This document shows, in pieces, positions 47,867-64,000 of a stretch of DNA of 64,000 nt. This DNA comes from Lachnospiraceae bacterium. Lineage in GTDB: Bacteria; Bacillota; Clostridia; Lachnospirales; Lachnospiraceae. The number at the start of each line of letters is the position of its first letter. The first letter of the stretch is position 1. The translations under genes were made by a program, and so were the position numbers. The stretch covers positions 62,001 through 126,000 of the forward strand of contig JAFQCK010000015.1 of NCBI GenBank assembly GCA_017416465.1, written 5' to 3'. A model generated the notes under the pieces. It was not told the origin of the DNA and did no database searches. It saw only the letters and a program-made list of their open reading frames with translations.

Positions 47867-47892
47867 TACTTAATATCAAGGAGAGATTTATT

Positions 47893-48276
47893 ATGGCTGA
47901 ATCAAAGATAATATGGCAGGATAGGAAGAGGATAATTTTTGGATTACCTTGGACTTTCACTAAGTATAAATTGTATGAAGATAAAATACAGATATGTACA
48001 GGGTTTCTTAATAAAAAAGAAGAAGAAATAAGATTGTACAGGATAATGGATACTACACTTGAAAAACCATTAGGACAAAGAATTTTTGGACTTGGAAGTA
48101 TTAAAGTTAATTCGGCGGACAAAACAACACCGCAGTTTTATATACTCAGAGTTAAGAATTCAGATAAGGTTAGAGATATGCTTTCTGAGCAGGTTGAGAG
48201 TGAAAGAGAGAGAAGAAGAGTATCCGGAAGAGAATTCATGAATAGTGATTATGATGATGAGATGGATATAGAGTAA
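47893..48276 (+). CDS. bacterial PH-domain protein
   Basis: A 127-residue protein with the pattern of bacterial Pleckstrin-homology domains (bPH_2/YdbT-like): FGLPWTFTKYKLYEDKIQIC, quoted as its core, then EEEIRLYRIMDTTLEKPLGQRIFG. There is no membrane segment, which is unusual since many bPH_2 proteins are membrane-linked. The C-terminal tail is Arg/Glu/Asp-rich. CAAGGAGAG precedes the ATG. A strong terminator lies 30 bases after the stop. Role unknown. Confidence 0.8.
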   Translation: MAESKIIWQDRKRIIFGLPWTFTKYKLYEDKIQICTGFLNKKEEEIRLYRIMDTTLEKPLGQRIFGLGSIKVNSADKTTPQFYILRVKNSDKVRDMLSEQVESERERRRVSGREFMNSDYDDEMDIE

Positions 48277-48306
48277 AGAGAAGATACTTGTGAGATTTTA
48301 GAAAAG

Positions 48307-48357
48307 AAAGATGCCTTTTGTGATTAAGTTAATCTGATTACAAAAGGCATCTTTTTT
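48307..48357 (+). terminator. strong terminator ahead of the amylase locus
   Basis: A long stem (AAAGATGCCTTTTGT, 48307-48321, with ACAAAAGGCATCTTT from 48340) with an 18-base loop ends in a T run. It isolates the starch locus from upstream transcription. Confidence 0.88.
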
Positions 48358-48417
48358 GTACAATTAGAAAAAATATATAGTGTAATAATAAGTATATTTA
48401 AAGTGAAAGAAATTTGG

Positions 48418-48434
48418 TTGTGCATAATGCACAA
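48418..48434. promoter_or_regulatory. 17-base palindrome, candidate operator
   Basis: TTGTGCATAATGCACAA is a perfect 8-bp inverted repeat around one central base. It lies 16 bases upstream of a possible -35 (48450) and about 112 bases upstream of the consensus promoter at 48547. Its position in front of the first amylase gene makes it a candidate site for a starch-responsive regulator; no regulator gene is in the window. Confidence 0.5.
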
Positions 48435-48449
48435 AAACATATTCTGAAA

Positions 48450-48478
48450 TTGTTAAAATATCACAAAATCGCTATTAA
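48450..48478 (+). promoter_or_regulatory. possible distal amylase promoter
   Basis: TTGTTA (48450-48455) and TATTAA (48473-48478) are spaced by 17 bases, just downstream of the palindrome. It is weaker than the promoter at 48547. Confidence 0.35.
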
Positions 48479-48546
48479 GATTATAAAAAGGAGAAAAATA
48501 GGCAAAAAAGTAAATAATAAAATATTAAAAAAATATTAAATGATTG

Positions 48547-48575
48547 TTGAAATTAATTAAAATATACTATATAAT
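48547..48575 (+). promoter_or_regulatory. main promoter of the first amylase gene
   Basis: TTGAAA (48547-48552) and a perfect TATAAT (48570-48575) with 17-base spacing. The 80-base leader includes a small GC hairpin (CGCCC about 48587 with GGGTGCG) and ends in AAAGGAGG before ATG 48658. The stretch from 48358 to 48657 otherwise holds only the palindrome and the distal promoter. Confidence 0.75.
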
Positions 48576-48657
48576 ACAATTAACTCTCGCCCATTAAAAG
48601 TAAAAGGGTGCGTGTGAAGCAACTATAAGCTATATAAAATAAAAGGAGGTAGAAAAA

Positions 48658-51600
48658 ATGAATTTCAACAAAAAACTGAGAAAAGTACTCAGTATGTTTT
48701 TGGCGTTTTTAATGTTTTGTTCTGTGACATTAACAGATATGGCATTAATGACATCAAAGACTAAGGCTGAAGCTGCAATGAACCAATATGGTTTATTGGA
48801 TAAAGCATGTGACGGCCTTATACTTCACTGCTGGAATTGGTCATATTCTAATATTAAGAGTAGTATGGCTGATATTGCAGCAGCAGGATACACATCTTTA
48901 CAGACATCGCCTGTACAGATGCCAAAAGACGCAGGTAATGACACACAGGGAAATTGGTGGAAGGTATATCAGCCTACAACACTTAGTATGGTTGAGAATC
49001 ATCCATGGTTTGGATCAAAAGCTGAATTTAAGGCTATGTGTGATGAAGCAGAGAAATATGGAATTAAAGTTATCGTAGATATTGTAGCTAACCATATGGC
49101 TAACAATACAGGTTCTCAAGGAAACTGTAGAGGAGATATCTGCAGTCAGAACGATGCTACATTCAGAGATGATGATTCATGTTGGCATTTAAATGGTTCT
49201 ACGTATATTGATTATGGTAATCAGCATCGTAATGGAGATACAACAAGTTTAACACATGGATTTGGTGGTTGGCCTGATCTTAATACAGGAAATACAAAGG
49301 TTCAGAACGCAATTATTTCTTTATTAAAAGAATGTGTTGACCTTGGAGCAGATGGTTTCAGATTTGATGCTGCTAAGCATATCGAACTTCCAACTGATCC
49401 GGGTGGAGCTTCAGACTTCTGGCCAAATGTTACAAGTGCAATCCGAGCATACAAGTCAGATGTATACCTTTATGGAGAAATTCTTGATGATTCAGCAACA
49501 AGTATCTCTAACTATACAAAATATCTTGCGGTAACTGATAACAGAGCAGGTAACTCAACAAGATATGGTGTAAGAGAAAATAATATTGGTAAAGCAGCTA
49601 ATTCTGCATTAACATATGATGGACAGCTTGGAGATAATATTGTTCTTTGGTCTGAATCGCATGATACATATGCAAATGATAACTTTACAGGTGAGTCAGC
49701 TAAATTTTCACAGGATCAGATTAACAGAGCATGGTGTATCATAGCAGCACGTGATTTTGCAGCACTTTATTATATTCGTCCGGGCAGTACAAGTGCAGCA
49801 ATGGGTTCTAAGAGTACAAATACAGCATGGAAAGATACAGAAATAGTAGCTGTTAATAAATTCCACAATTACTTCAATGGAACATCTGAATATATGTCAT
49901 CTTGTGATAATTCAGTAGTTCTTGTTGAGAGAGGTTCTAAGACAGCAACTGGTGGTGTAGTACTTGTTAATATTGGTGGAGGCTCTAAATCAGTAAGTGG
50001 AGCAACTACACATTTATTAGCAGATGGTACATACAAAGATCAGGTATCAGGTAGTACATTTACTGTATCAGGCGGAAAGATTTCTGGACAGATTGGAAAC
50101 ACAGGTGTTGCAGTTGTTTATAATGCAGAGCCTATCGTGTTAACACCAACACCAACTATTTCTAAAGAAGGTGGAGAATTCTCTACTGATACATTGTCAT
50201 TAACAATCGGATTATCTAATGCTACAAGTGGTACATATAAGATTGGTAGTGGTTCAGCTACAACATATACATCATCTAAATCAATTACTATTGGTTCAGA
50301 TATGTCAATTGGTGATAGTGTAACTATTACACTTACAGCTACAGATGGTTCAAAGACAACAACAAAGACATATACATTTACAAAGACAGAGTACATAGAA
50401 CCAGAGGGAAATATTGCATATCTTAAACTTCCTTCAGGATGGTCAACACCTGTTAAATGTTATGCATATGATTCTGCTACAGAAACAGTTAACAACGGAG
50501 TATGGCCAGGTCAGGAAATGACATTGGATTCAGAAACAGGATACTATAAGTATGAGGTTCCTTCAAGTATTGAAAAACCAAGAGTAATTTTCTATAGCTC
50601 AGATGTAAACAGATATCCTGCAGATATGGAAAAAGGTTTATTGTTTGAAGAAGAATGCCCATATCTTTATAAAGATGGAAGTTGGTCAAAATATAGCCCA
50701 ACACCAACAACAGGTACAGTTGTAGTTAAGTATGTAGATGGGTCAAATAATGAAATCGCTACATCTAAGACTACAAAGGGAACAATTGGTTCGTCTTATA
50801 CAACAACAGCAGCAACTGTTGATGGATATACACTTAAGACGACACCGTCTAATGCAACAGGTAAATATACAGCTGGAACAATTACTGTTACATATGTATA
50901 TGAAGAAATACCGGACACAGATCCTAAAGTTACAACTTCTCTTGCTTCAGGATCAACATTTAAAACAGAAACACAGACAATTACACTTACTTTAGCAAAT
51001 GCTACAAGTGGTACATATTCAGTTGATGATGGTCCTGTTAAAACATTTACAAGCACAGCAAGTGTTGTACTTGGACAGGGTAAAGTGGCAGATTCAACAG
51101 TAACAGTTAAAGCAACAGCTAAAGGAACAGACGGAACAACAAAGAGCTTTACATTTACTTATAATAAACAGTTCAATGGAACAATTAATGAAGAAACAAG
51201 TGTTTCAACAGCTAGTTTAGCAACAGCTAAAGCGTCGTCATTAGCATCATACTATTCAACAAATGAAAATGGTGTTGGTGTTAAGAAGACAATTACAGTT
51301 GACGGTAGCTTATCAGATTGGGATAGCTCAATGTTAATTGCACAGGGTACAGCTAATGATGACCCACGTGTATATCGTCCAAACTCAATGTACGAGGTAC
51401 CAATTGATTTATATGCACTTTATGGAGCGTATGATGATAGTAACCTTTATCTCATGTGGGAAATGACAAATGTTCAGGACGTAGTTGCACCAAATGATGA
51501 TTATCCATTATCACAGGGTGTACTTTATCAGACAATGAACGTACCATTCTTTATTGCAATTGATACAAAAGATTCTAAAACTGCAATTGGTAATAAAGGA

Positions 51601-53406
51601 CAGCTTCAAACAACTGGAACAATTTGGGATTCAGGAATTACATTCGAAAATAGCTTTAACAGATTAATTGCTATTTCTACAAATGGTGCAAACGGACCAT
51701 TCTTATATGAAGGAGATAGCACAGGACTTAATCCTGTGGAAATTGCAGCAAGAGCAGAAACAGGAATTGAATTCGATTATGGTCTAGGAATTCTTAGCAA
51801 AAATGTATACGGTATTGATAAAGCTTATGGTGAATACAATAACCGTGTTGTTGGAGATATGTGTAATGAAAATGCAGCTTGGGTAGACTTTAATACAAAG
51901 GGACATAGCAGTTCAACAATGGACTTCCATTATGAAATGGCAATTCCATTTGAATCATTAGGCGTAAGTGCAAGTGATGTAGCAAGTAATGGATTAGGTG
52001 TATTACTTATAGCTACAATGGGTAAATCAGGTATGGACTGCTTACCATATGACTTATCTATGAACGATCAGGCTGATTTAGATGATGCAGCAGGTTCGCA
52101 GGAATTCAACAGTTTTGAAAAGAGTGATGAAGATCACATTACAACAGCATTTGCAGGTGTTGGTAAAATAGGTGAAATTGTACCTCCAACTCCGGATGAG
52201 TTAGAACTTAACTTTGGTGCAGATAAGTCTTCACCACAGGCTACAGGAACAGCTCTTACATTAAATGGTATTGCAGAAGGTGGAACAGCACCTTACACAT
52301 ATAAATACTATGTAAATGGTTCATTAGTAGGTACAAAATCAGGAAGTGGTGAAACATCAGTAGCATGGACACCATCTACAAGTGGCAAATACTTAATTAA
52401 GTGTATCGTTACAGATGCAGATGGTAACAGTAAAACAAGTGCTAAGTATTACAATATTGAAGGAAACTCAGGGTATGATGATGGCTGGGTAAAAGTAAGT
52501 AACAATTGGTATTATTATGTCAATGGAAAGAAAGCAACAGGTTGGAAATTAATTAATACTAAATATTACTATTTTGATGCATCAGGTGTAATGCAGGCAT
52601 CTAAGTGGGTTGGTAACTACTATTTGAAATCTGATGGTGTTATGGCAACATCAGAATTCGTAGGAGATTACTACGTAGATGAAAATGGTGTTTGGGTAAC
52701 AGGTTCTAAATGGTTACAGATTGATGGTAAGTATTATTATCTTGCAAAAGGTGTTGTACAGAAATCAAAATGGGCAAAAGTAGGTTCATACTATTATTAC
52801 TTCGATGCATCAGGTGTAATGCAGGCAAATAAGTGGATTAGTAATAAATACTATGTAAAATCTAATGGTGTTATGGCAACATCAGAGTTTGTAGGAAATT
52901 ACTATGTAGATGCAAATGGTGTTTGGGTAACAGGAACAAAATGGGTTAAGGTAGGAGATGACTACTATTATCTTGTAAAAGGTGTTGCACAGAAATCAAA
53001 ATGGGTAAAAGTAGGAACAAAATACTATTACTTCGATGCATCAGGTGTAATGCAGGCAAATAAATGGATTTCTAACAAATATTATGTAAAAGCTGACGGT
53101 TCAATGGCAACATCAGAATTTGTAGGCAACTACTATGTGAATGCAAGTGGTGCTTGGGTAACAGGTACACAGTGGGCTAAGGTAGGAGATGACTACTATT
53201 ATCTTGTAAAAGGTGTTGTGCAGAAGTCAAAATGGGTAAAAGTAGGAACAAAATACTATTACTTTAACGAAACTGGTGTAATGCAGTCATCTAAGTGGAT
53301 AGGAAACTATTATGTAAAAGCAGATGGCTCTATGGCAGTATCAGAATGGGTTGATAATGGTAAATATTATGTAGGTGCTGATGGACTATGGGTAAAGAAT
53401 CCATAA
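48658..53406 (+). CDS. exported multimodular alpha-amylase with wall-binding repeats (amylase 1)
   Basis: A 1582-residue exported enzyme. A signal peptide (cleavage probably after about residue 40, near KAEA) precedes a GH13 catalytic domain very like B. subtilis AmyE (subfamily 28): GLILHCWNWS, IVANHMA, nucleophile D237 in DGFRFDAAKH, acid/base E274 in YGEILD, and D336 in SESHD. Then come paired Ig-like domains (about 500-580 and 757-840) flanking CBM26 (about 585-680, VWPGQEM) and MucBP (686-755), a roughly 300-residue module (about 850-1175) resembling CBM74, an Ig-like domain (1181-1275) and cell-wall-binding repeats (1276-1582). It should degrade granular starch at the cell surface. Confidence 0.92.
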   Translation: MNFNKKLRKVLSMFLAFLMFCSVTLTDMALMTSKTKAEAAMNQYGLLDKACDGLILHCWNWSYSNIKSSMADIAAAGYTSLQTSPVQMPKDAGNDTQGNWWKVYQPTTLSMVENHPWFGSKAEFKAMCDEAEKYGIKVIVDIVANHMANNTGSQGNCRGDICSQNDATFRDDDSCWHLNGSTYIDYGNQHRNGDTTSLTHGFGGWPDLNTGNTKVQNAIISLLKECVDLGADGFRFDAAKHIELPTDPGGASDFWPNVTSAIRAYKSDVYLYGEILDDSATSISNYTKYLAVTDNRAGNSTRYGVRENNIGKAANSALTYDGQLGDNIVLWSESHDTYANDNFTGESAKFSQDQINRAWCIIAARDFAALYYIRPGSTSAAMGSKSTNTAWKDTEIVAVNKFHNYFNGTSEYMSSCDNSVVLVERGSKTATGGVVLVNIGGGSKSVSGATTHLLADGTYKDQVSGSTFTVSGGKISGQIGNTGVAVVYNAEPIVLTPTPTISKEGGEFSTDTLSLTIGLSNATSGTYKIGSGSATTYTSSKSITIGSDMSIGDSVTITLTATDGSKTTTKTYTFTKTEYIEPEGNIAYLKLPSGWSTPVKCYAYDSATETVNNGVWPGQEMTLDSETGYYKYEVPSSIEKPRVIFYSSDVNRYPADMEKGLLFEEECPYLYKDGSWSKYSPTPTTGTVVVKYVDGSNNEIATSKTTKGTIGSSYTTTAATVDGYTLKTTPSNATGKYTAGTITVTYVYEEIPDTDPKVTTSLASGSTFKTETQTITLTLANATSGTYSVDDGPVKTFTSTASVVLGQGKVADSTVTVKATAKGTDGTTKSFTFTYNKQFNGTINEETSVSTASLATAKASSLASYYSTNENGVGVKKTITVDGSLSDWDSSMLIAQGTANDDPRVYRPNSMYEVPIDLYALYGAYDDSNLYLMWEMTNVQDVVAPNDDYPLSQGVLYQTMNVPFFIAIDTKDSKTAIGNKGQLQTTGTIWDSGITFENSFNRLIAISTNGANGPFLYEGDSTGLNPVEIAARAETGIEFDYGLGILSKNVYGIDKAYGEYNNRVVGDMCNENAAWVDFNTKGHSSSTMDFHYEMAIPFESLGVSASDVASNGLGVLLIATMGKSGMDCLPYDLSMNDQADLDDAAGSQEFNSFEKSDEDHITTAFAGVGKIGEIVPPTPDELELNFGADKSSPQATGTALTLNGIAEGGTAPYTYKYYVNGSLVGTKSGSGETSVAWTPSTSGKYLIKCIVTDADGNSKTSAKYYNIEGNSGYDDGWVKVSNNWYYYVNGKKATGWKLINTKYYYFDASGVMQASKWVGNYYLKSDGVMATSEFVGDYYVDENGVWVTGSKWLQIDGKYYYLAKGVVQKSKWAKVGSYYYYFDASGVMQANKWISNKYYVKSNGVMATSEFVGNYYVDANGVWVTGTKWVKVGDDYYYLVKGVAQKSKWVKVGTKYYYFDASGVMQANKWISNKYYVKADGSMATSEFVGNYYVNASGAWVTGTQWAKVGDDYYYLVKGVVQKSKWVKVGTKYYYFNETGVMQSSKWIGNYYVKADGSMAVSEWVDNGKYYVGADGLWVKNP
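52483..53403 (+). repeat. cell-wall-binding repeat array of amylase 1
   Basis: Tandem units of about 20 residues rich in Trp, Tyr and Gly (for example WVKVGTKYYYFDASGVMQ and WISNKYYVKSNG) match the CW_binding/glucan-binding YG repeat family. They attach proteins non-covalently to wall polymers or glucans. No sortase motif is present. Confidence 0.88.
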
Positions 53407-53452
53407 GAAGTTACTAAATATATATTGAATTATTAACTAAAAAATATAAAAG

Positions 53453-53523
53453 GTTGTACAAATCAACAGGCTATTAATGTATATGATTAAATATAGAGAC
53501 ATAGTTTTGTTGGTTTGTACAAC
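53453..53523. repeat. 16-bp inverted repeat downstream of amylase 1
   Basis: GTTGTACAAATCAACA (53453-53468) pairs with 53508-53523 over 16 bp with one G-T pair and a 39-base loop. No T run follows, so it is not a standard terminator; an mRNA-stabilising or processing hairpin is possible. Confidence 0.6.
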
Positions 53524-53593
53524 ATAAATAAAATACTATTAATACAACTTAAGTAGAATAGTAGCTTAAAATAAATATATGATGCAATAAGTT

Positions 53594-53622
53594 CAGTACA
53601 TATCAGAGTGTGCTGTTTTTTT
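53594..53622 (+). terminator. short terminator between amylases 1 and 2
   Basis: A 7-bp stem (CAGTACA 53594-53600 with TGTGCTG 53609-53615, one G-T pair) is followed by seven T residues. It is weak-to-moderate and may allow read-through into amylase 2. Nothing else with a clear promoter pattern was found in 53407-53695. Confidence 0.6.
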
Positions 53623-53695
53623 CTAGAATGAAGGAATTGTATTTATATATTTATTATTTGTTTATGAGAAAAATAAATATGAAAGGAATGTAAAA

Positions 53696-56600
53696 ATGAA
53701 AGCAAGAAAAAAGTTTTTTATGTTAGGTAAAAAAACTTTAGCTACAGTTTTGGCAATGACTACAGTTGCTGTAGGTGCGTTTAGCGGAATGACATTCGCA
53801 CAAAAAGAAACAGAAGTAACTGTTCAGGCTTCAAGCTCAATTTTGTCTAATGAAGACAGAGGCGTAATTTATGCTAATTCGCGTACGGATTTCCGAGATG
53901 AGACAATTTATTTTGTAATTACTACAAGATTCTTTGACGGAGATTCAAGTAACAACACTAAAACATCAGAGGATACAAAAGCACAGAACCCTGATAGTGA
54001 CCCATCATGGAGAGGTGATTTTGCGGGACTTATTGAAAAGCTTGATTATATCAAGGCTTTAGGTTTTACAGCTATTTGGATTACACCGGTAGTTGAGAAT
54101 GATTCAGGATATGATTACCATGGTTATCATGCATATAATTTTAGTGCAGTTGATACAAGATATGAATCTAATGGTATTACATATCAGGATTTAATTAATG
54201 CAGTTCATGAAAAGGGAATGAAGATAATTCAGGACGTGGTTTTGAATCATACATGTAACTGGGGTGAAGAAAATCTTCTTCAGATTACAAGTGATGTATA
54301 TTCTACAAGAAATCAGGTAGTTATGAATGGTACAGGTGACCCTGATAATATTTATCATCACAATGGTTTCTGTGGCGGTGGTGACTGGGATAACTACGAA
54401 GCACAGAGAAAGACAATCGCAGATGACTGTTTCGACTTAGAGACGGAGAATCCAACTGTTTACAATTATCTTGTAGATTGTTATACAGATTATATCGAAA
54501 TGGGTGTAGACGGTTTCCGTATTGATACAGTTAAGCATATTTCAAGACTTACATTTAACACAGTATTCCTTCCTGCATTTAAAAAAGCAGGTGGAGATGA
54601 TTTCTACATGTTTGGCGAGGTTTGTACAAAGGGACATGATGTATGGTATCGTGGAGCACCACCTATCTCAACATGTTTCTATACATGGGCAGATTCCTCA
54701 ACATGGACTTCAAAATGGAGTACAGATACTGCATCTAACGAAGCATTAGTAGAAGCTCATTACAATGCTAATATGGATTGTGGTAGTCAGCCAACAAGTG
54801 ATAATGCTTTCCTTAAAGGAAATGAGTATCATACACCTGACTATAGTCAGAAATCAGGAATGGACGTTATTGACTTCCAGATGCATTGGAGTTTCAATGA
54901 TGCAAACAGTGCATTTAATACAGCAAAAGGTGAAGACCAGTATTTTAATGATTCAACATGGAACGTTGTATATGTAGATTCGCATGACTATGCTCCGGAT
55001 CAGTGTCAGACACAGAGATATACAGGTGGTACAACTAAGTGGGCAGAAAATCTTTCACTTATGTTTACTTTTAGAGGAATTCCTTGTCTCTACTATGGTA
55101 GTGAAATTGAGTTCCAGGCAGGAAAACCTATTGACGTAGGTCCTAACTCGCCATTATCACAGACAGGTAGAGCATACTTTGGTGACCATATAGAAGGAAC
55201 TGTAGAAGCAACAGGATTTACAGTATTTGATAACCTAAGTGGTGAAGTAGAGAATACTCTTGATTCTACACTTTCACAGCATATTATGAGACTTAACAGA
55301 ATTCGTCAGGCAATACCTGCTCTTAGAAAAGGTCAGTATTCAACAGACGGATGTAACGGAAATATCGCATTCAAGAGAAGATATACAGATGCTACAACAG
55401 ACAGTTTTGCTTTAGTAGCAATCTCAGGTGGTGCTACATTCTCAGGTATTCCGAATGGAAAATATGTGGATGCAGTAACAGGTGATGTTCAGAATGTAAC
55501 AAATGGAACACTTACAGCTTCTGTATCAGGACAGGCGAATATGAAAGTATATGTTCTTGATACAGCTAAAACACCGGCTCCGGGAAGAGTAATTCCAAAT
55601 GGTGATTACCTTACAGATGGTGGTTCAGCAACTTTAATTAAGAATGAAAGAGTTGATGATAATACTGTTAAACCAACAAGCATAACAGTAAGTCCTACAT
55701 CAGTTTCTGTTTTAGAAGGAAATACAACTACAGTAACAGCAACAGTTTTACCAACAGATGCGTCAAACAAAAAAGTAACATGGACATCAAGTAATGATTC
55801 TGTTGCAACAGTTTCAGGTGGAACAATTACAGGTGTTTCAGTAGGTACAGCAACGATTACAGCGAAGACAAGTAATGGATTGACAGCAACAGTTTCAGTA
55901 ACAGTAAAAGAAAATCCTAATATAGTTAAGCCAACAGGTGTAACAGTAAGTCCTACAACACTTACATTAACAGAAGGAGATGCCAGCAAAGTAACAGCAA
56001 CAGTTGCACCTTCAAATGCAACAAATAAGACAGTTACATGGACATCGGCTGATACATCAGTAGCAACAGTAGATAGTACAGGTCTTGTAACCGCTGTAGG
56101 AGAAGGTTCGACAACAATTACAGCAAAAACAAGTAATGGATTGACAGCAACAGTTTCAGTAACAGTTGAGGGTAAAACGTTTACTACCTTAGAAAATGGT
56201 GTATATTTTGAAAAACCATCAAGTTGGGGCTCAGACGTATATGTATATATGTGGAAAAAGAGCAATAGCGAAAAGTTAACGGGTGAATGGCCTGGTACAA
56301 AGATTCAAAACTTAGAAGACAATATCTATGGATTCTCATGTAATGTAGATACATCAGATGCGATGATTATATTTAATGCAGGTTTGAATCAGCCTCAGAC
56401 AGATGACCTTACATTCGAAGGCTTAGGGCTTTATGATACCTCAGGATGGGTAAAAGAGATAACAGAAAAAGGTAAAGTTTCAATTCAATATGTAGATGAA
56501 GATGGAAATGTTCTATCTACAAAGTCAATGTCAGGAGATGTAGGTGCATCTTATTCTACAGTAGCAATTACAATTGACGGATATAAATTAAAAACAACAC

Positions 56601-57730
56601 CATCTAATGCAAATGGTACATATACTGCAGGAACAACAACAGTAACTTATGTATATGAAAAAGAGATAATTGATGACATTTTAAATGGATGGAATGAGAT
56701 TAATGGTAAGTGGTATTATTATGAAGCTGGTGTAATGCAGACATCTAAGTGGATAGATAATAGATATTATGTGAAAGCAGATGGTTCAAGAGCTGAATCT
56801 GAATTTGTATCAAATGGTAATTACTATATTGGTTCAGATGGTGTATGGGTAACAGGTTCCAAATGGTTACAGGTAAGTGGAAAATACTACTACTTAAAAT
56901 CGGGTACAGTTCAGAAATCAAAATGGGTAAAAGTAGGAACAAAATACTATTACTTCGATGCGTCAGGTGTAATGCAGTCTTCTAAGTGGATTGGTAATTA
57001 TTATGTAAAAGCAGATGGTTCAATGGCGGTATCAGAATTTGTTGGAAGTTATTATGTGGATGCAAATGGCGCATGGGTAACAGGAACAAAATGGGTACAG
57101 TCAAATAATAATTATTATTACCTTGTATCAGGTGTTGCTCAGAAGAACAAATGGGTAAAAGTAGGAACAAAATACTATTACTTTAATGCATCAGGAGTAA
57201 TGCAGGCAAATAAATGGATTTCTAACAAATATTATGTAAAAGCTGACGGCTCAATGGCAGCAAATGAATTTGTAGGAAATTACTATGTAGATGCAAGCGG
57301 TGCATGGGTAACAGGAACAAAATGGGTACAGACAGACGGTAAGTACTACTATCTTGTAAAAGGTGTTGCTCAGAAAGCTAAATGGGTGAAAGTAGGTTCG
57401 TACTACTTTTATTTCGATGCATCAGGAGTAATGCAGGCAAATAAATGGATTAGTAATAAGTATTATGTAAAATCTAACGGTGCTATGGCAGCAAATGAAT
57501 TTGTATGTGACGGTAAATACTACGTAGACGCAAATGGTGTTTGGGTAACTACAACAGGATGGAAAAAGGTAGGAGATAAATGGTACTACTTAGTAAAAGG
57601 TGTAGTTCAGATGAATAAGTGGATTAATAATGTTTACTATGTAAAAGCAGATGGCTCAATGGCAGTAAACGAATGGATTGGTGGAAAATATTATTTTGAT
57701 TCTGACGGAAAATGGGTACAGGATAAATAA
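53696..57730 (+). CDS. exported multimodular GH13 amylase with wall-binding repeats (amylase 2)
   Basis: A 1344-residue exported GH13 enzyme. After a signal peptide (to about residue 35-45) the catalytic domain shows FTAIWITPVVEN, VVLNHT, nucleophile D277 in DGFRIDTVKH, acid/base E308 in FGEVC and D431 in VDSHDYAPD. Next are two bacterial Ig-like group 2 domains (about 658-740 and 742-828), CBM26 (833-920, GEWPGTKI), a MucBP-like domain (926-990) and a wall-binding repeat array (998-1344). It is closely related to amylase 3 and clearly different from amylase 1. The likely substrate is starch or malto-oligosaccharides; exact product pattern unknown. AAAGGAATG precedes the ATG. Confidence 0.9.
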   Translation: MKARKKFFMLGKKTLATVLAMTTVAVGAFSGMTFAQKETEVTVQASSSILSNEDRGVIYANSRTDFRDETIYFVITTRFFDGDSSNNTKTSEDTKAQNPDSDPSWRGDFAGLIEKLDYIKALGFTAIWITPVVENDSGYDYHGYHAYNFSAVDTRYESNGITYQDLINAVHEKGMKIIQDVVLNHTCNWGEENLLQITSDVYSTRNQVVMNGTGDPDNIYHHNGFCGGGDWDNYEAQRKTIADDCFDLETENPTVYNYLVDCYTDYIEMGVDGFRIDTVKHISRLTFNTVFLPAFKKAGGDDFYMFGEVCTKGHDVWYRGAPPISTCFYTWADSSTWTSKWSTDTASNEALVEAHYNANMDCGSQPTSDNAFLKGNEYHTPDYSQKSGMDVIDFQMHWSFNDANSAFNTAKGEDQYFNDSTWNVVYVDSHDYAPDQCQTQRYTGGTTKWAENLSLMFTFRGIPCLYYGSEIEFQAGKPIDVGPNSPLSQTGRAYFGDHIEGTVEATGFTVFDNLSGEVENTLDSTLSQHIMRLNRIRQAIPALRKGQYSTDGCNGNIAFKRRYTDATTDSFALVAISGGATFSGIPNGKYVDAVTGDVQNVTNGTLTASVSGQANMKVYVLDTAKTPAPGRVIPNGDYLTDGGSATLIKNERVDDNTVKPTSITVSPTSVSVLEGNTTTVTATVLPTDASNKKVTWTSSNDSVATVSGGTITGVSVGTATITAKTSNGLTATVSVTVKENPNIVKPTGVTVSPTTLTLTEGDASKVTATVAPSNATNKTVTWTSADTSVATVDSTGLVTAVGEGSTTITAKTSNGLTATVSVTVEGKTFTTLENGVYFEKPSSWGSDVYVYMWKKSNSEKLTGEWPGTKIQNLEDNIYGFSCNVDTSDAMIIFNAGLNQPQTDDLTFEGLGLYDTSGWVKEITEKGKVSIQYVDEDGNVLSTKSMSGDVGASYSTVAITIDGYKLKTTPSNANGTYTAGTTTVTYVYEKEIIDDILNGWNEINGKWYYYEAGVMQTSKWIDNRYYVKADGSRAESEFVSNGNYYIGSDGVWVTGSKWLQVSGKYYYLKSGTVQKSKWVKVGTKYYYFDASGVMQSSKWIGNYYVKADGSMAVSEFVGSYYVDANGAWVTGTKWVQSNNNYYYLVSGVAQKNKWVKVGTKYYYFNASGVMQANKWISNKYYVKADGSMAANEFVGNYYVDASGAWVTGTKWVQTDGKYYYLVKGVAQKAKWVKVGSYYFYFDASGVMQANKWISNKYYVKSNGAMAANEFVCDGKYYVDANGVWVTTTGWKKVGDKWYYLVKGVVQMNKWINNVYYVKADGSMAVNEWIGGKYYFDSDGKWVQDK
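56687..57727 (+). repeat. cell-wall-binding repeat array of amylase 2
   Basis: Trp/Tyr-rich tandem units like those of amylases 1 and 3. One stretch of about 105 bases (near 57150) is almost identical in DNA to part of amylase 1 (near 53002), suggesting recombination or gene conversion. Confidence 0.88.
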
Positions 57731-57756
57731 TATTAGAACTACATAGGTAAAAATGT

Positions 57757-57809
57757 AAAAGGGGTTGTTAATAATATTAAATAATAATATTTGCAAACAG
57801 CCTCTTTTT
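57757..57809 (+). terminator. hairpin terminator between amylases 2 and 3
   Basis: A 13-bp stem (57757-57769 with 57796-57808, two G-T pairs) ends in a T run, 27 bases after the amylase 2 stop. It overlaps the N-terminal extension of the amylase 3 ORF, which supports the later start at 57890. Confidence 0.75.
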
Positions 57810-57889
57810 ATGTTATAGTCAAATGGGTGTTAAGCATAAACAAATTTATTGATTACGCTAATCAACAAAAAAGAAAAGGAGAAGGAAAA

Positions 57890-60800
57890 ATGAAGAAAAA
57901 CAGAGTTTTGCGTACTGCAAAGAAATGTTTAGCTCTCACACTTGCCACATTTACGATGGTAGTAGGAGCAATGGGTGGGATGACATTTTCTAATGTTACA
58001 AAAGAAGTTGAAGCAGAAGCAGCAACTTCAGTTCTTTCAGGTGAAGACAGAAATGTAATCTTTGCTAATAGTAGAACAGACTTTAGAGATGAATCAATCT
58101 ACTTTGTAATGGTCACAAGATATTACAATGGTGATGAGAGTAATGACGTACAGTGCTGGGATGGAACACAGTATAATTTGAATGACCCGGCATGGAGAGG
58201 TGATTTTAAGGGATTAATTGAGAAACTTGATTATATCAAGGCATTAGGATTTACTGCAATCTGGATTACACCGGTTGTAGAAAACTGTAGTGGTTATGAT
58301 TATCATGGCTACCATGCAAAAGACTTTACTGAAGTTGATGAAAGATATGAATCAGATGACTGTACATATCAGGATTTAATTGATGCAGTTCATGCTAAAG
58401 ATATGAAGATTATTCAGGACGTAGTTTATAATCATACAGGTAACTTTGGTGAAGATAATTTAATGCCAATGTTTGATAAGGTAGGAGATTTAAGTTCGCC
58501 GGATTGCTTGCAGCTTTCAGAAGGAACAGAACTTCCTTCAAACTATTTTGATTTATTACCGGCAGCTCAGTATCAGGCAAGACTTGCTCTTATGAAAAAT
58601 ACTGATGGTGTAAATCATGATGTTAATAATTTATATCATCACTATGGAAACTTTAACTGGGATGATTATACATGTCAGATTGCACAGATTGCAGGTGACT
58701 GTGTAGATTTAAATACAGAGAATCCATTAGTATATAATTATTTAGTAGATGCTTATACTAAATATATTGATATGGGTGTAGATGGTTTCCGTGTGGATAC
58801 AGTTAGACATATCAGTCGTTTAACACTTAACAAAGTATTTAATCAGGCTTTTAAAGAGGCTGGAAAGAAAAATGGAAAAGACTTCTTCATGTTCGGTGAA
58901 GTTTGTACAAGAGATAATGGAAATTATTGGTACCGACAGTCTCCATCAATGTCAACACCTTTCTATACATGGAAAGAGTCAGTTGATTATCCATGGAGTG
59001 ATACAGATTGGGAAGTAAACTATGACTCTGCTATTCAATGTACACTTGATAATGCGGATGCAAGTACAATCGCTAACCAACCAACAAGTACTAATGCACA
59101 CCTCAATGGTAATGAATATCACACTCCTGATTACAGTGAGTTCTCAGGATTAAATGTTATTGACTTCCCAATGCATTGGTCATTTAAGACAGCAGAAAAT
59201 GCATTTAATGTAGCTAAAAATGGTGATAAATACTATAATGATGCTACATGGAATGTAACATATGTAGATTCACATGACTATGCTCCTGATGGTGCTCCTG
59301 AAGGAGAAAGATTTAATCAGGATCAGAGTGTATGGGCTGAAAACCTTTCTTTAATGTTCACATTTAGAGGAATTCCATGTATTTACTATGGTTCTGAAAC
59401 AGAATTCCAGAAAGGTGCTGTAATTGATAAAGGTCCAAACATCGCACTTGCAGAAACAGGTCGTGCATATTATGGTGATAATATTGAAGGAACAATTACT
59501 GCAGTTGATTTTGGTGAATATGGTAATGTAAGCGGAGCTGTTGGAGAAACACTTAAACATCAGTTATCTCAGCACATTCAGAGACTTAACAGACTTCGTC
59601 AGGCAATTCCTGCACTTAGAAAAGGTCAGTACTCTACAGAAGGTGTATCAGGAAATCTTGCATTCAAGAGACGTTATACAGATGCTAATACAGATAGCTT
59701 TGTATGTGTATCTATCTCAGGAAATGCTACATTTACAGGTATTCCAAATGGAACATATGTAGATGCAGTAACAGGTGATACTAAGACAGTAACAAATGGT
59801 ACACTTTCAGTTTCAGTTTCAGGAAAAGGTAACTTAAAAGCGTATGTATTAAATACAACAAAGACACCTGCTCCTGGTAGAGTAATTACAAATGGTCTTT
59901 ACTTAACAGATGGTGGTGCAATTCAGGATATCGAGCCAATCGAAATTGAAGAAGTAGCAGTAACAGGTATTTCATTAGATAAATCTTCAGTATCTGTATT
60001 AGAAGGAGAAAATATTAAAGTAACAGCTACAATTACACCATCAGATGCAACATATAAAACAATAAAATGGACATCAAGTAATACATCAGTTGCTACAGTT
60101 GCAGGCGGAAATATTACAGGTATAGCTCCTGGAACCGCAACAATTACGGCGACTACAAAAAATGGTAAGACAGCAACTGTTAAAGTGACAGTTTCTACTA
60201 ATCCAAATATTATTAAGCCAATGGGTGTAAGTTTAAGCCCTTCAACATTAACTATTACAGTAGGAAATACAGGTAAGCTTACAGCAACAGTATCACCTGA
60301 AAATACAACAGATAAATCACTTACATGGACATCAAGTGATACATCAGTTGCTACAGTAAATAAGAGTGGTGTTGTAACAGCAGTTGCAGAAGGAACAGCA
60401 ACAATAACCGCAACAACATTCAATGGATATAAGGCAACAGCAACGGTAACAGTAGAACCTAAAGAAGTTCCAACCTTAGAAAATGGTGTATACTTTGAAA
60501 AACCTTCAGGTTGGGGCGACACAATTAATGTATATATGTGGTCTGATAGTACAGGTCAAAAATATATGGGTGCATGGCCTGGAACAGCGATTGAAAACTT
60601 AGGAGATAATCTTTACGGATTCTCATATAAGTCAGATGTTAGCGATATGAAGATTATCTTTAATGATGGTAGTAATCAGACAGCAAATTTAGAATTTGTT
60701 AATAATGGTTATTATAATCAGAGTGGTTTGGTATATGTAGTCGACACAACTGATAGTGGAAAAGTAATTGTAAAATATGTTGATGAATCAGGAAATGTTC

Positions 60801-61861
60801 TTTCAAGTAAAACACTTAGTGGTACAGTAGGTTCAGCATATACTACAGAGGCGATTACAATTGATGGATATACATTAAAGACTAGTCCTTCAAATGCGAC
60901 AGGAACATATACATCATCAAGTATTACAGTAACATATGTATACAAAAAAATTAAAATTGACGACGGCGGAGACGAAACACAAAATCAAGGTTGGGTACAG
61001 CAGAATGGTAAGTGGTATTATTATGATAACAGTGGTGTAATGCAGACATCTAAGTGGATTGATAATAAATACTATGTAAAGGCTGACGGTTCAATGGCTG
61101 TATCAGAATTTGTAGGAAATTATTATCTGGATGAAAATGGTGTATGGGTAACAGGCTCTAAGTGGCTAAACCTTAATGGAACATATTACTACATTAAATC
61201 AGGAATTGTACAGAAGTCAAAATGGGTAAAAGTAGGTTCGTATTATTATTACTTTAATGCGAGTGGTGTAATGCAGGCAAATAAGTGGATAAATAATACA
61301 TACTATGTAAAATCTAATGGTGTTATGGCAACATCTGAGTTTGTAGGCAATTACTACGTAGACGAAAATGGTGTATGGATAACAGGAACAAAATGGGTTA
61401 AGGTAGGAAGTGACTACTATTATCTCGTAAAAGGTGTTGCTCAAAAATCGAAATGGTTAAAAGTAGGTTCATATTACTATTACTTTAATGCAAACGGAGT
61501 AATGCAGGCAAACAAATGGATTAATAATAAATATTATGTAAAATCCAGTGGTGCGATGGCAGTAAATGAATTTGTAGGAAATTACTACGTGGATGCAAAT
61601 GGTGCATGGGTAACAGGTTCGCAATGGTTAAAAGTAAATGACGAATGGTATTACATAAAATCAGGAATTGTACAGAAATCAAAATGGGTAAAAGTAGGTT
61701 CATACTATTATTACTTTGATGCATCAGGCGTAATGCAGACTTCTAAATGGATTAATGGTACTTACTACGTAAAAGCTAATGGTGCAATGGCAGTATCAGA
61801 GTGGGTAGATGGTGGAAAGTATTATGTAGATGCAAACGGAAAATGGGTTAAAAATCCATAA
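57890..61861 (+). CDS. exported multimodular GH13 amylase with wall-binding repeats (amylase 3)
   Basis: A 1323-residue exported GH13 enzyme, a tandem paralogue of amylase 2. The ORF reaches 57791, but AAAGGAGAAGG lies just before ATG 57890 (MKKNRVLRTAKK), followed by a normal signal peptide. Catalytic residues are D303 in DGFRVDTVRH, E337 in FGEVC and D463 in VDSHDYAPD. A longer loop (around residues 190-260) distinguishes it from amylase 2. It then has two Ig-like group 2 domains (about 690-772 and 774-860), CBM26 (864-948), MucBP-like (958-1022) and wall-binding repeats (1034-1323). A strong terminator follows. Confidence 0.9.
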   Translation: MKKNRVLRTAKKCLALTLATFTMVVGAMGGMTFSNVTKEVEAEAATSVLSGEDRNVIFANSRTDFRDESIYFVMVTRYYNGDESNDVQCWDGTQYNLNDPAWRGDFKGLIEKLDYIKALGFTAIWITPVVENCSGYDYHGYHAKDFTEVDERYESDDCTYQDLIDAVHAKDMKIIQDVVYNHTGNFGEDNLMPMFDKVGDLSSPDCLQLSEGTELPSNYFDLLPAAQYQARLALMKNTDGVNHDVNNLYHHYGNFNWDDYTCQIAQIAGDCVDLNTENPLVYNYLVDAYTKYIDMGVDGFRVDTVRHISRLTLNKVFNQAFKEAGKKNGKDFFMFGEVCTRDNGNYWYRQSPSMSTPFYTWKESVDYPWSDTDWEVNYDSAIQCTLDNADASTIANQPTSTNAHLNGNEYHTPDYSEFSGLNVIDFPMHWSFKTAENAFNVAKNGDKYYNDATWNVTYVDSHDYAPDGAPEGERFNQDQSVWAENLSLMFTFRGIPCIYYGSETEFQKGAVIDKGPNIALAETGRAYYGDNIEGTITAVDFGEYGNVSGAVGETLKHQLSQHIQRLNRLRQAIPALRKGQYSTEGVSGNLAFKRRYTDANTDSFVCVSISGNATFTGIPNGTYVDAVTGDTKTVTNGTLSVSVSGKGNLKAYVLNTTKTPAPGRVITNGLYLTDGGAIQDIEPIEIEEVAVTGISLDKSSVSVLEGENIKVTATITPSDATYKTIKWTSSNTSVATVAGGNITGIAPGTATITATTKNGKTATVKVTVSTNPNIIKPMGVSLSPSTLTITVGNTGKLTATVSPENTTDKSLTWTSSDTSVATVNKSGVVTAVAEGTATITATTFNGYKATATVTVEPKEVPTLENGVYFEKPSGWGDTINVYMWSDSTGQKYMGAWPGTAIENLGDNLYGFSYKSDVSDMKIIFNDGSNQTANLEFVNNGYYNQSGLVYVVDTTDSGKVIVKYVDESGNVLSSKTLSGTVGSAYTTEAITIDGYTLKTSPSNATGTYTSSSITVTYVYKKIKIDDGGDETQNQGWVQQNGKWYYYDNSGVMQTSKWIDNKYYVKADGSMAVSEFVGNYYLDENGVWVTGSKWLNLNGTYYYIKSGIVQKSKWVKVGSYYYYFNASGVMQANKWINNTYYVKSNGVMATSEFVGNYYVDENGVWITGTKWVKVGSDYYYLVKGVAQKSKWLKVGSYYYYFNANGVMQANKWINNKYYVKSSGAMAVNEFVGNYYVDANGAWVTGSQWLKVNDEWYYIKSGIVQKSKWVKVGSYYYYFDASGVMQTSKWINGTYYVKANGAMAVSEWVDGGKYYVDANGKWVKNP
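60989..61858 (+). repeat. cell-wall-binding repeat array of amylase 3
   Basis: Trp/Tyr/Gly-rich tandem units of about 20 residues (WVKVGSYYYYFNASGVMQ and similar). They serve the same inferred wall-attachment role as in amylases 1 and 2. Confidence 0.88.
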
Positions 61862-61907
61862 TATACTTATTTATCTATAATTAATACAAAAGATAAAAAT
61901 TAATATT

Positions 61908-61957
61908 AAAGACTTTCGTAAGTTGGAATTTGTATCCAACTTATGGAAGTCTTTTTT
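61908..61957 (+). terminator. strong terminator after amylase 3
   Basis: A long stem (about 20 bp with a few mismatches; AAAGACTTTCGTAAGTTGGA from 61908 with its partner ending in AAGTCTTT) is followed by T7. Confidence 0.9.
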
Positions 61958-62008
61958 TAAATATATTTATTTTATTTACATAAATTTTGTGGAAAATGCT
62001 ATAATTTA

Positions 62009-62038
62009 TTGAATCTAAAATACAAACTATGGTATAAT
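62009..62038 (+). promoter_or_regulatory. promoter of the CBM25 protease gene
   Basis: TTGAAT (62009-62014) and a perfect TATAAT (62033-62038) with 18-base spacing, about 90 bases before ATG 62129. A second possible pair (TTTACA 61975, TATAAT 62000, 19-base spacer) lies just upstream. Confidence 0.6.
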
Positions 62039-62128
62039 ATTACAAATATTGTCGATATATGAATTATAATAATGGGGAAAAGTGTACAAAATATTTATTA
62101 ATTTATAAATTTAAGGAGAATGAACTCT

Positions 62129-64000
62129 ATGAAAAAGAATATGAAAAGAGTAGTTTCAGGAATAACATCTTTGGCAATGTGTTTTTCTGTATTATCAGGT
62201 TTGAATTTCAATATATATGCATCGTATCAGGTGTCGGACAGACCATATGATGTAGGCAAAGTTTTGGAGGATAATCAGGACTTAACAGAGGGAATGATTG
62301 ATACAAAAGAGTTTGATTATCTGGCATTGAATGAGAGTATAGAGAAAGAGGCAAATAATCAGCAATTAGATACAATCGGACTTTTTGAAGCAGATAAGGT
62401 GTTAAATACAAGTGATACTGAAGAGAAAGCAAACTTGCCGTCAAGTATAGATATAAGTGAAAGTGAATATTTTCCGGAAGTAGGAGATCAGGGCTCATCA
62501 GGCAGTTGTTGGCATTATGGAACATCATATGCATGCCTTACTTATGCCAATAATAAAGCAAGAGGTATAAAAACTACACCTGAGAATACGATTAATCCGA
62601 TGTTTTGCTATAACTATGCAGCAGGGACTAAAAATTCTTCATTAGAAGGTCTTTTAATGCAAATTGGTTATCCGTCAGTTGGTGTTCTTCCGATTGATAC
62701 AAAGAATACAGTATCATTATATCCTATAAAAGAAGTATGGGAAAGTGCAGTGAGAAATCGTGGTGGACAGTATATTTCATACAAATGTTTTGGAGATGAA
62801 GATGAGGTCGTAACATCACCGGATGATTCAAGTATATATATGTTAAAGAAGAACTTAAGTGAAGGTAAACCGGCTGCGCTTGGTTCTCTTGCATATAACT
62901 GGAATTTTTCTGTTGTGGCCTCAGGTGAACATAAAGGTGAAGTTGCTATTGACAGATGTGATTTGAATAAAACCGGTGGACACATAATTGCTTTTGTAGG
63001 ATATGATGATAATATATGGATTGATATAAATTATGATGGTAAAGTTCAGGAAGCTGAGATGGGAGCTTTTAAGATGATAAATTCATGGGGAAAAGATTGG
63101 GGAAATGATGGTTATGTATGGGTTGCATATGATTCACTTAACAAAACCTCGCAGATTCTTACAACAGAAGAAGCGACAAGAATTAATAACGCAATTAATG
63201 CAGGAACAATTAAAGCGAATAAAGTAAATAATAGTGTACGTAAGTCATTTTTTATGTTTGAAACATATAGTAACCCTGTTGTAAGAGATAGAATATCATC
63301 GGAATGTCTTGTATATATGACTGTTAATACAGGTTCAAGAAGAGAAATGACAATGTCAGTTACAGCTACTAATAAAAAAGATGGTACGGTTACAGAATAT
63401 GTAATGCCTAACTATGCAGGAGAGGCAGGAGGTAAGAATCTTGCGTGGGATGGAACAGCATTTTCAAAAGATGCAACAATGGTGTTTGACTTAGATAATG
63501 TAATATTTGATATTACGCCAGAGACCATGGAAGATTATGATTGGGAAGTTATATTTGATGACAATACTTTAGACGAATATTCAATTACAGTAAAAGATGT
63601 ATATTTTACTGTGGAAGGCGTAAAAAAATATACAACAGGTATATCAAAGCTTCCATTAAACGGAACATCTAAAACATATAAGATGACACTTGGTGGTGGA
63701 ACAGATGCTTCTATTACAGAAGAAAATAATAAAAATGTAATTATCTACTATAACAATTCCGGTTATAGTGATGTAAATATCCATTACAAAGATGGAAGCG
63801 GAACATGGACTACTGCACCGGGGATGCAGATGAATGTAAGTGATACACAGGACGGATATCGATTTAGATATGTAATTAATATGGGAAGTGCTTCATCGGT
63901 TACAATGTGTTTTAATGACAGAGATGGTTCGTGGGATAATAATGGAGAGAAAAACTATGTAATTACTAAACCGGGATGTTATGGAATAAAGAGCGGTGCC
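62129..64000 (+). CDS. exported papain-family cysteine protease with CBM25 starch-binding module, C-terminus off window
   Basis: The frame is open from ATG 62129 (after AAGGAG) to the window edge, 624 codons. A signal peptide is evident at residues 1-32. The C1-type protease core has catalytic C127 in DQGSSGSCWHYG, H285 in TGGHIIAFVGYDD and N318 in MINSWGKDWGNDGY. A beta-rich domain follows (about 370-520). From about residue 534 there is a CBM25 module: IIYYNNSGYSDVNIHYKDG, WTTAPGMQM, then the FNDRDGSWDNNGEKNY signature and PGCYGI. The protein is thus a starch-targeted protease beside three surface amylases. More modules may lie beyond 64000. Confidence 0.9.
   Translation, partial: MKKNMKRVVSGITSLAMCFSVLSGLNFNIYASYQVSDRPYDVGKVLEDNQDLTEGMIDTKEFDYLALNESIEKEANNQQLDTIGLFEADKVLNTSDTEEKANLPSSIDISESEYFPEVGDQGSSGSCWHYGTSYACLTYANNKARGIKTTPENTINPMFCYNYAAGTKNSSLEGLLMQIGYPSVGVLPIDTKNTVSLYPIKEVWESAVRNRGGQYISYKCFGDEDEVVTSPDDSSIYMLKKNLSEGKPAALGSLAYNWNFSVVASGEHKGEVAIDRCDLNKTGGHIIAFVGYDDNIWIDINYDGKVQEAEMGAFKMINSWGKDWGNDGYVWVAYDSLNKTSQILTTEEATRINNAINAGTIKANKVNNSVRKSFFMFETYSNPVVRDRISSECLVYMTVNTGSRREMTMSVTATNKKDGTVTEYVMPNYAGEAGGKNLAWDGTAFSKDATMVFDLDNVIFDITPETMEDYDWEVIFDDNTLDEYSITVKDVYFTVEGVKKYTTGISKLPLNGTSKTYKMTLGGGTDASITEENNKNVIIYYNNSGYSDVNIHYKDGSGTWTTAPGMQMNVSDTQDGYRFRYVINMGSASSVTMCFNDRDGSWDNNGEKNYVITKPGCYGIKSGA

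Follow-up and report, generated by a model that had tools for sequence, protein, structure and literature searches.

A predicted starch-binding, surface-displayed papain-type peptidase encoded among starch-degradation genes of a Lachnospiraceae bacterium

Background

Papain-type cysteine peptidases of family C1A (PF00112) are the closest described relatives, by catalytic domain, of a protein that we analysed in a Lachnospiraceae genome. It shares with them the profile match, the Gln-Cys-His-Asn active site and predicted secretion, and differs in its divergent sequence and in what follows the catalytic domain, namely a conserved extension and carbohydrate-binding modules. Those accessory modules are otherwise the ones found on GH13 amylases of gut Clostridia, which bear CBM26 or CBM25; those of the genome analysed also end in the surface tail of the protein. 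The catalytic domain of the protein described here, however, is a peptidase. The sequence analysed, hereafter the window, is a stretch of 64,000 nucleotides (contig JAFQCK010000015.1, positions 62,001 to 126,000) that holds the first part of the gene.

Peptidases or peptidase-like domains have been noted before in polysaccharide-degrading complexes. In the amylosome of Ruminococcus bromii, Amy16 has the order SP GH13 CBM26 Doc CBM26, and Doc14 (SP PEP A-S Doc) is listed as a peptidase that eluted with the amylosome, according to the tabulated components (PMC9112005). The Doc-CBM26 end of Amy16, as it is given there, recurs in homologues of the window protease from Ruminococcus-type metagenome-assembled genomes (MAGs), and Doc14 itself may be a relative of the protease family described below. 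The dockerin protein RflaF_05439 of R. flavefaciens has a papain-like module and was described as a putative cysteine peptidase on a polysaccharide-degrading complex (PMC3573020). Unlike the window protease, it is of NlpC/P60 type and consists of two modules and an X-dockerin, and the passages that describe it mention no starch module (PMC3573020). A scaffoldin of Acetivibrio mesophilus contains an S8-peptidase-like domain whose function within the cellulosome protein was reported as unknown (PMC11557425); compared with the window protease this domain is S8-like and borne on a scaffoldin, and the account of it names no starch module (PMC11557425).

Starch-binding modules have also been considered as targeting devices. 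The tandem CBM25 of a Microbacterium aurum amylase was discussed as a means of directing other proteins to starch granules (PMC5715617). Such targeting is engineered, as the source presents it (PMC5715617), whereas the CBM25 of the window protease is a natural fusion to a peptidase. The relation between protein and starch access is familiar from animal nutrition: ruminal starch digestion is described as limited by the protein matrix of the endosperm (PMC5902705), and grain silage to which protease was added was reported to have a higher starch digestibility in situ (PMC10162983).

Each module of the window protease is known; the combination of a C1 peptidase with starch modules is new. Among the matches listed in literature searches we found no description of C1-CBM25/CBM26 proteins, and no laboratory test of any such relative was found in the literature.

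Results

The open reading frame of the protease (P0002) begins at an ATG with AAGGAG about 10 nt upstream and remains open through the window end. In the source genome (G000, which is the window's own genome; 3.7 Mb, 89.5% complete, 5.0% contaminated) the stop lies at contig position 127704, 1704 bp past the window end, and the complete protein has 1191 residues. As shown in Table 1 for the part within the window, the modules are arranged as signal peptide, C1 peptidase, conserved extension, CBM25, two Big_2 domains, CBM26 (residues 812-888), MucBP (904-968) and choline-binding-type repeats that run to the C-terminus. Everything from the Big_2 domains onward, and also a pullulanase gene and a second C1-CBM25 protease gene downstream, lay beyond the view of the preliminary description of this locus. 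The extension was present in 78 of 78 proteins (the best 75 of 496 homologues and three of G000), as judged by a profile iterated on this same set, and a domain-level Pfam scan assigned it to no family above its cut-off.

Table 1. Features of the locus (window positions unless marked L005)
Feature	Position	Strand	Basis or remark
GH13 amylase 1: CBM26, MucBP, choline-binding-type repeats	48658..53406	+	Pfam scan
GH13 amylase 2: GH13 - Big_2 x2 - CBM26 - MucBP - repeats	53696..57730	+	Pfam scan
GH13 amylase 3: GH13 - Big_2 x2 - CBM26 - MucBP - repeats	57890..61861	+	Pfam scan
Predicted intrinsic terminator after amylase 3 gene	61908..61954 (L005:409-455)	+	20-pair stem and T-run
Promoter-like site TTGAAT-18-TATAAT, TG before second hexamer	62009..62038	+	10/12 consensus matches; upstream of protease
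Starch-binding C1 peptidase gene (predicted; P0002)	62129..64000	+	first 624 of 1191 codons; extends to window-equivalent 65704, beyond window
Putative signal peptide, residues 1 to about 31	62129..62221	+	by eye from sequence
C1 papain-type peptidase domain, residues 102-343	62432..63157	+	PF00112, 39.8 bits
Q121, oxyanion-hole glutamine	62489..62491	+	invariant, 73 rows
C127, nucleophile	62507..62509	+	invariant, 73 rows
H285, catalytic	62981..62983	+	invariant, 73 rows
N318, catalytic	63080..63082	+	invariant, 73 rows
Conserved extension, residues 355-521, C-terminal to peptidase	63191..63691	+	own iterated profile
CBM25, residues 534-621	63728..63991	+	PF03423, 56.3 bits
P0003, second C1-CBM25 protease	L005:8933-12430		downstream of pullulanase

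Assignment of the catalytic domain to family C1 was borne out by profile search. The isolated domain matched Peptidase_C1 over the curated cut-off (20.7 bits), and a scan of the whole 1191-residue protein did not list the family at E<=0.01; we therefore regard the match as real but divergent. Likewise, PF00112 was found at E<=0.001 in only 22 of 75 full-length homologues (best 75 of 496), which again marks a divergent C1 domain. No Pfam propeptide-inhibitor family was listed for the whole protease at E<=0.01. Among PDB chains, a profile of the family matched 3ois (2.3e-11), Lpg2622 (6.7e-7) and cathepsins (about 1e-4), and also the solved cell-surface cysteine proteases 4ci7 and 4d59, both of which we take to be clostridial in origin.

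The Cys/His/Asn triad named in the preliminary description proved correct, and Q121 completes the set. All four residues were invariant in 73 aligned sequences with 24-63% identity to the window protease, drawn from 70 of the best 75 loci (of 496; L038, L043, L069, L072 and L089 were excluded) and the three proteases of G000. They were invariant also in an 8-row alignment; both alignments include the window protease.

The CBM25 reported earlier was likewise found over the curated cut-off for PF03423 (27.3 bits), and it aligned with the solved CBM25 modules 2lab (1.1e-12), 2laa (2.7e-12) and 2c3v (5.6e-9). Residues H552, W560 and W602 of the protease align with H26, W34 and W74 of chain 2c3v, which are presumably its sugar contacts. 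After exclusion of domains that contained X, were shorter than 70 residues or were identical to another, the three residues were retained in 144, 143 and 136 of the 167 CBM25 modules carried by C1 proteases; among 28 modules carried by GH13 proteins, which all came from one genome, the counts were 24, 27 and 25. Other residues occupy these positions in the remaining modules.

The CBM26 of the protease scored 58.2 bits, over its cut-off of 28.1. By its C-terminal array of PF01473/PF19085/PF19127 repeats (PF19085, 132.8 bits, three stretches), the protease is a surface protein of the choline-binding type, and would be expected to bind the cell wall. From Big_2 onward the order of its tail is that of amylases 2 and 3, to which it is 60 and 57% identical in the CBM26 and 58 and 56% in the Big_2 pair. 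Across G000 there were 11 CBM26 matches: three on C1 proteases, four distributed over the pullulanase and the three amylases, and four located elsewhere, one of these below cut-off; its three CBM25 matches all fell on the three C1 proteases. The genome also encodes a protein cut by a contig end (L134:2680-4647, contig C99; 655 residues), which has surface repeats like those of the protease and two CBM26 modules. By eye, the available part showed no catalytic domain, and the neighbouring genes resembled capsule-type kinase and phosphatase genes.

The three amylases reported directly upstream are indeed GH13 proteins with choline-binding-type repeats. A terminator is predicted between the last of them and the protease gene; terminator-like sites in window positions 47800-62200 were not clearly in excess (7, compared with 4.4, sd 2.4, in shuffled sequences), so this prediction rests on its long stem and its position. 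The promoter-like site that follows also rests on its position, since such sites were no more common than in shuffles, either in the amylase-protease region (62 and 73.6) or around the protease-pullulanase locus (67 and 64.9). The pullulanase gene begins 29 nt past the protease stop, outside the window, and is preceded by AAGGAGG. Because the gap is this short and no terminator was predicted within it, co-transcription is predicted, and from this arrangement protease and pullulanase probably form a two-gene transcript with the protease first. On the protease strand the next predicted intergenic terminator follows the pullulanase (L005:8732-8777), inside whose gene there is one weak terminator-like site of 6 pairs; a promoter-like site (L005, 8841-8869) and then P0003 come next. 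Terminator-like rows at L005 numbered 8, compared with 2.8 in shuffles, an excess smaller than it looks because three of the eight are one site (8731-8778). A common upstream operator was not apparent: no 10-, 12- or 14-mer occurred in three or more of six upstream regions.

Besides P0002 and P0003, G000 has a third C1-CBM25 protease, P0004, on contig C90, and Q, C, H and N are retained in all three. At the cysteine P0003 has GNCGYW where the window protease has GSCWHY, which makes the activity of P0003 less certain. Between P0002 and P0003 the identity is 55% in the part from peptidase to CBM25, rises to 84% in the two Big_2 domains and reaches 91% in CBM26. The more similar tail was therefore copied, or homogenised, at a later time than the catalytic portion. 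Compared with the R. bromii amylosome the window protease has no dockerin; none was listed for P0002, P0003 or P0004 in the Pfam scan, so that none of the three can be counted among amylosome components on this ground.

C1-CBM25 proteins were found in three of nine genomes of the genus (G000, G002 and G004); in G006 the sole match was to C1, over 57 residues, and in G001 nothing but CBM25 was matched. Identical match coordinates show G002 to be Lachnospiraceae bacterium RM5 and G004 to be RUG091. The nine genomes together gave 20 CBM25 matches, in four of them. Fifteen were on C1 proteases, two of these on a frame without the start of the C1 domain; of the other five, three were on a single G001 protein, one was on a CotH-type protein and one fell in a short frame of 156 residues broken by a stop. 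The preliminary description had taken CBM25 to be normally part of amylases. This expectation failed for the genus. In another genome, G325 (MAG RUI290; about 3 Mb), CBM25 was matched 74 times, and the stretches examined there had it on 11 GH13 ORFs and on C1 proteases alike. The nearest module to a GH13-borne CBM25 of G325 was on another GH13 protein in 19 of 28 cases and on a C1 protein in 9 of 28, and this showed no clear exchange of CBM25 between amylases and proteases.

To place the protease among its relatives we scanned a species-genome collection, which returned 496 relatives, of which the best-scoring 75 loci were kept. At E<=0.001, which is not the curated cut-off, Pfam listed CBM_25 in 55 of these 75 homologues, CBM26 in 24 and Dockerin_1 in 15. 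The figure of 55 overstates the frequency of CBM25, because most query rows included it and so favoured its retrieval, and the CBM26 count includes CBM25 cross-matches (for example L024, 25.0 against a cut-off of 28.1 bits). Our own profiles, fitted to the set and thus more sensitive and less strict, detected CBM25 in 63 of the best 75 homologues and a dockerin in 17. In six of the 75, one of them cut by a contig end, none of the modules sought was found.

C1 proteases built in this way are found repeatedly in other gut Clostridia; many of the records refer to samples from the gut of sheep, goat, roe deer or dairy cattle. The earlier suggestion that the fusion is uncommon was thus not sustained, yet the core exceeded 300 bits in just 4 of 299 genomes of a family-level sample. 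A loose count there (109 of 299 at E<=0.001) was dominated by short hits that involved a different C1 peptidase or nothing more than CBM25. In a class-level draw, 14 of 391 genomes, G000 included, had the core at E<=1e-30. Ten class-level proteins, from 15 stretches with L119 and L130-L133 left out, were scanned, giving dockerin in 7 of 10 and CBM25 in 0 of 10. To judge from the lengths of its contig and protein, L119 is probably identical with L031, one of the homologues labelled as having CBM25.

When ten homologues of the dockerin group were scanned singly, eight ended in a CBM26 with a dockerin before it, and both modules scored over cut-off; in L034 the dockerin was below cut-off and there was no CBM26, and L047 had CBM26 with no dockerin listed. 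For CBM25, two of the ten (L027 and L070) passed the cut-off, L034 fell short of it, and the other seven had no listed match. As CBM25 is weak there, the sure targeting modules of this group are CBM26 and dockerin. Cohesin matches were present in 33 of the 45 genomes behind the loci, 29 over cut-off, and in 1 of 14 in the control rings. Clostridium bornimense has the core with CBM3. Judged from these sequences, the targeting module changes (CBM25/CBM26, dockerin or CBM3) while the core stays. On a tree of 86 cores, from which L069 and L089 were excluded for their short C1 domains, nine module labels required 14 changes, compared with a mean of 35.4 when shuffled, and the three G000 proteases formed one clade.

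If C1-CBM25 fusions generally stood beside GH13 genes, a point on which the preliminary description had proposed a survey of other genomes, amylases should be common at these loci. A GH13-like ORF was found at 3 of the best 75 of 496 (L030, L079 and L086), in 991,723 bases searched with a profile from ten sequences, and adjacency to amylases was rejected as a general rule. G000 has 27 PF00128 matches, grouped into 19 ORFs, in its 3.7 Mb; at this density about five GH13 loci would be expected, provided that the other genomes are alike and our profile is as sensitive as PF00128.

Other carriers of CBM25 were surveyed in loci L024-L118, which had been chosen for C1 or CBM25. Of 124 CBM25 ORFs, 96 also had C1 or the extension, 11 had GH13 and 17 had neither; nine of the 17 were scanned and comprised one subtilase, three CotH-type proteins and five without a catalytic family. 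The subtilase (L116:533-5413, MAG RUG14116) belongs to family S8, with 118.7 bits to PF00082 and three CBM25, and is unrelated to the C1 family. A second peptidase family with CBM25 would be expected if proteolysis on starch is useful, and this one case is of that kind. The CotH-kinase-type proteins with CBM25 are L083:5298-8285, L115:255-4313 and L117:4492-8751; one of the three has ChW repeats, and L115 has a clear CBM26. As CBM25 occurs on CotH-type proteins too, the module alone does not prove a role in starch digestion.

Discussion

The window protein is probably, in our estimation and from its sequence, a secreted and surface-displayed papain-type (C1) endopeptidase that would be held on starch and cut proteins on and around the granules. 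Its CBM25 and CBM26 would hold it on the granule, and its choline-binding-type repeats would hold it on the cell wall, alongside amylases with the same tail. It would then cut granule proteins, in the gut mainly those of the cereal endosperm matrix and those associated with the granules. Such proteolysis would yield peptides for the cell and uncover starch for the amylases and the pullulanase. The amylase-type tail, the predicted co-transcription with the pullulanase and the relatives with dockerin and CBM26 are the reasons to assign the protease to the starch machinery. Cleavage of granule proteins draws further support from the invariant Q, C, H and N, the conserved CBM25 contact positions and the placing of the pullulanase gene. 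It is weakened by the lack of conserved GH13 adjacency, the weak CBM25 of the dockerin group, the homologues without modules, the CBM25 borne on CotH-type proteins, the divergence of the C1 domain and the cysteine motif of P0003. Of the action at starch granules first suggested for this protein, what stands is a predicted starch-targeted, surface-displayed C1 peptidase within the starch machinery, for which stripping or digestion of granule proteins appears to be the best fit.

The protease may instead be a general surface protease that scavenges nitrogen, with starch modules that only park the cell and the enzyme on feed particles and granule proteins no special target. We consider this unlikely, although it deserves to be weighed. 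Its core also occurs with dockerin or CBM3, a link with plant material that goes beyond starch, and at 25 of the 75 loci (best 75 of 496) more than one ORF matched the C1 profile, some of which may be split genes. On the other side, both CBM families of the window protease are starch families, its tail is of the amylase type and its gene is arranged with a pullulanase gene.

Processing or shedding of the bacterium's own surface proteins, amylases included, is a very improbable function. A tail common to protease and amylases and the resemblance of the family to the cell-surface proteases 4ci7 and 4d59 would suit it, but the amylase neighbourhood is not conserved and two starch modules would be needless for such a task. 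No support was found here for the related idea, raised at the outset, that the protease matures or releases the amylases.

It is very improbable that the modules bind a non-dietary alpha-glucan (bacterial or host glycogen, or exopolysaccharide) and that the targets of the protease are microbes or host protein. The CBM25 on CotH-type proteins of relatives and the abundance of CBM25 in G325 lend themselves to this reading; against it, CBM26 is common to the protease, the GH13 amylases and the pullulanase, the CBM25 contact positions are conserved, and in that same CBM25-rich genome the module is found on GH13 proteins. Least probable of all is an inactive peptidase serving as an adhesin, which would accord with the divergent Pfam score and the unusual motif of P0003 but is opposed by four catalytic positions that do not vary across such diverse sequences.

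Returning to a peptidase that acts on granule proteins, we think the chances about even that it represents a recurrent clostridial family, so far undescribed, of papain-type peptidases targeted to polysaccharides. In such a family the core, a C1 domain with its extension of about 170 residues, would be combined with CBM25/CBM26 and surface repeats, with CBM26 and dockerin, with CBM3 or with dockerin alone, and at least one S8 subtilase would have arrived independently at a like design.

If the proposed function is true, proteolysis would be a built-in arm of starch degradation in the gut, directed against the protein coat by which starch access is restricted. Limitation of starch access by the matrix is, as these reports put it, a recognised constraint on grain digestion in ruminants that is relieved by proteolysis (PMC5902705, PMC10162983). 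A starch-binding protease in the surface kit of the amylases would make these genes plausible candidates for removal of the protein matrix, and it suggests that complexes of the amylosome type may include a proteolytic member.
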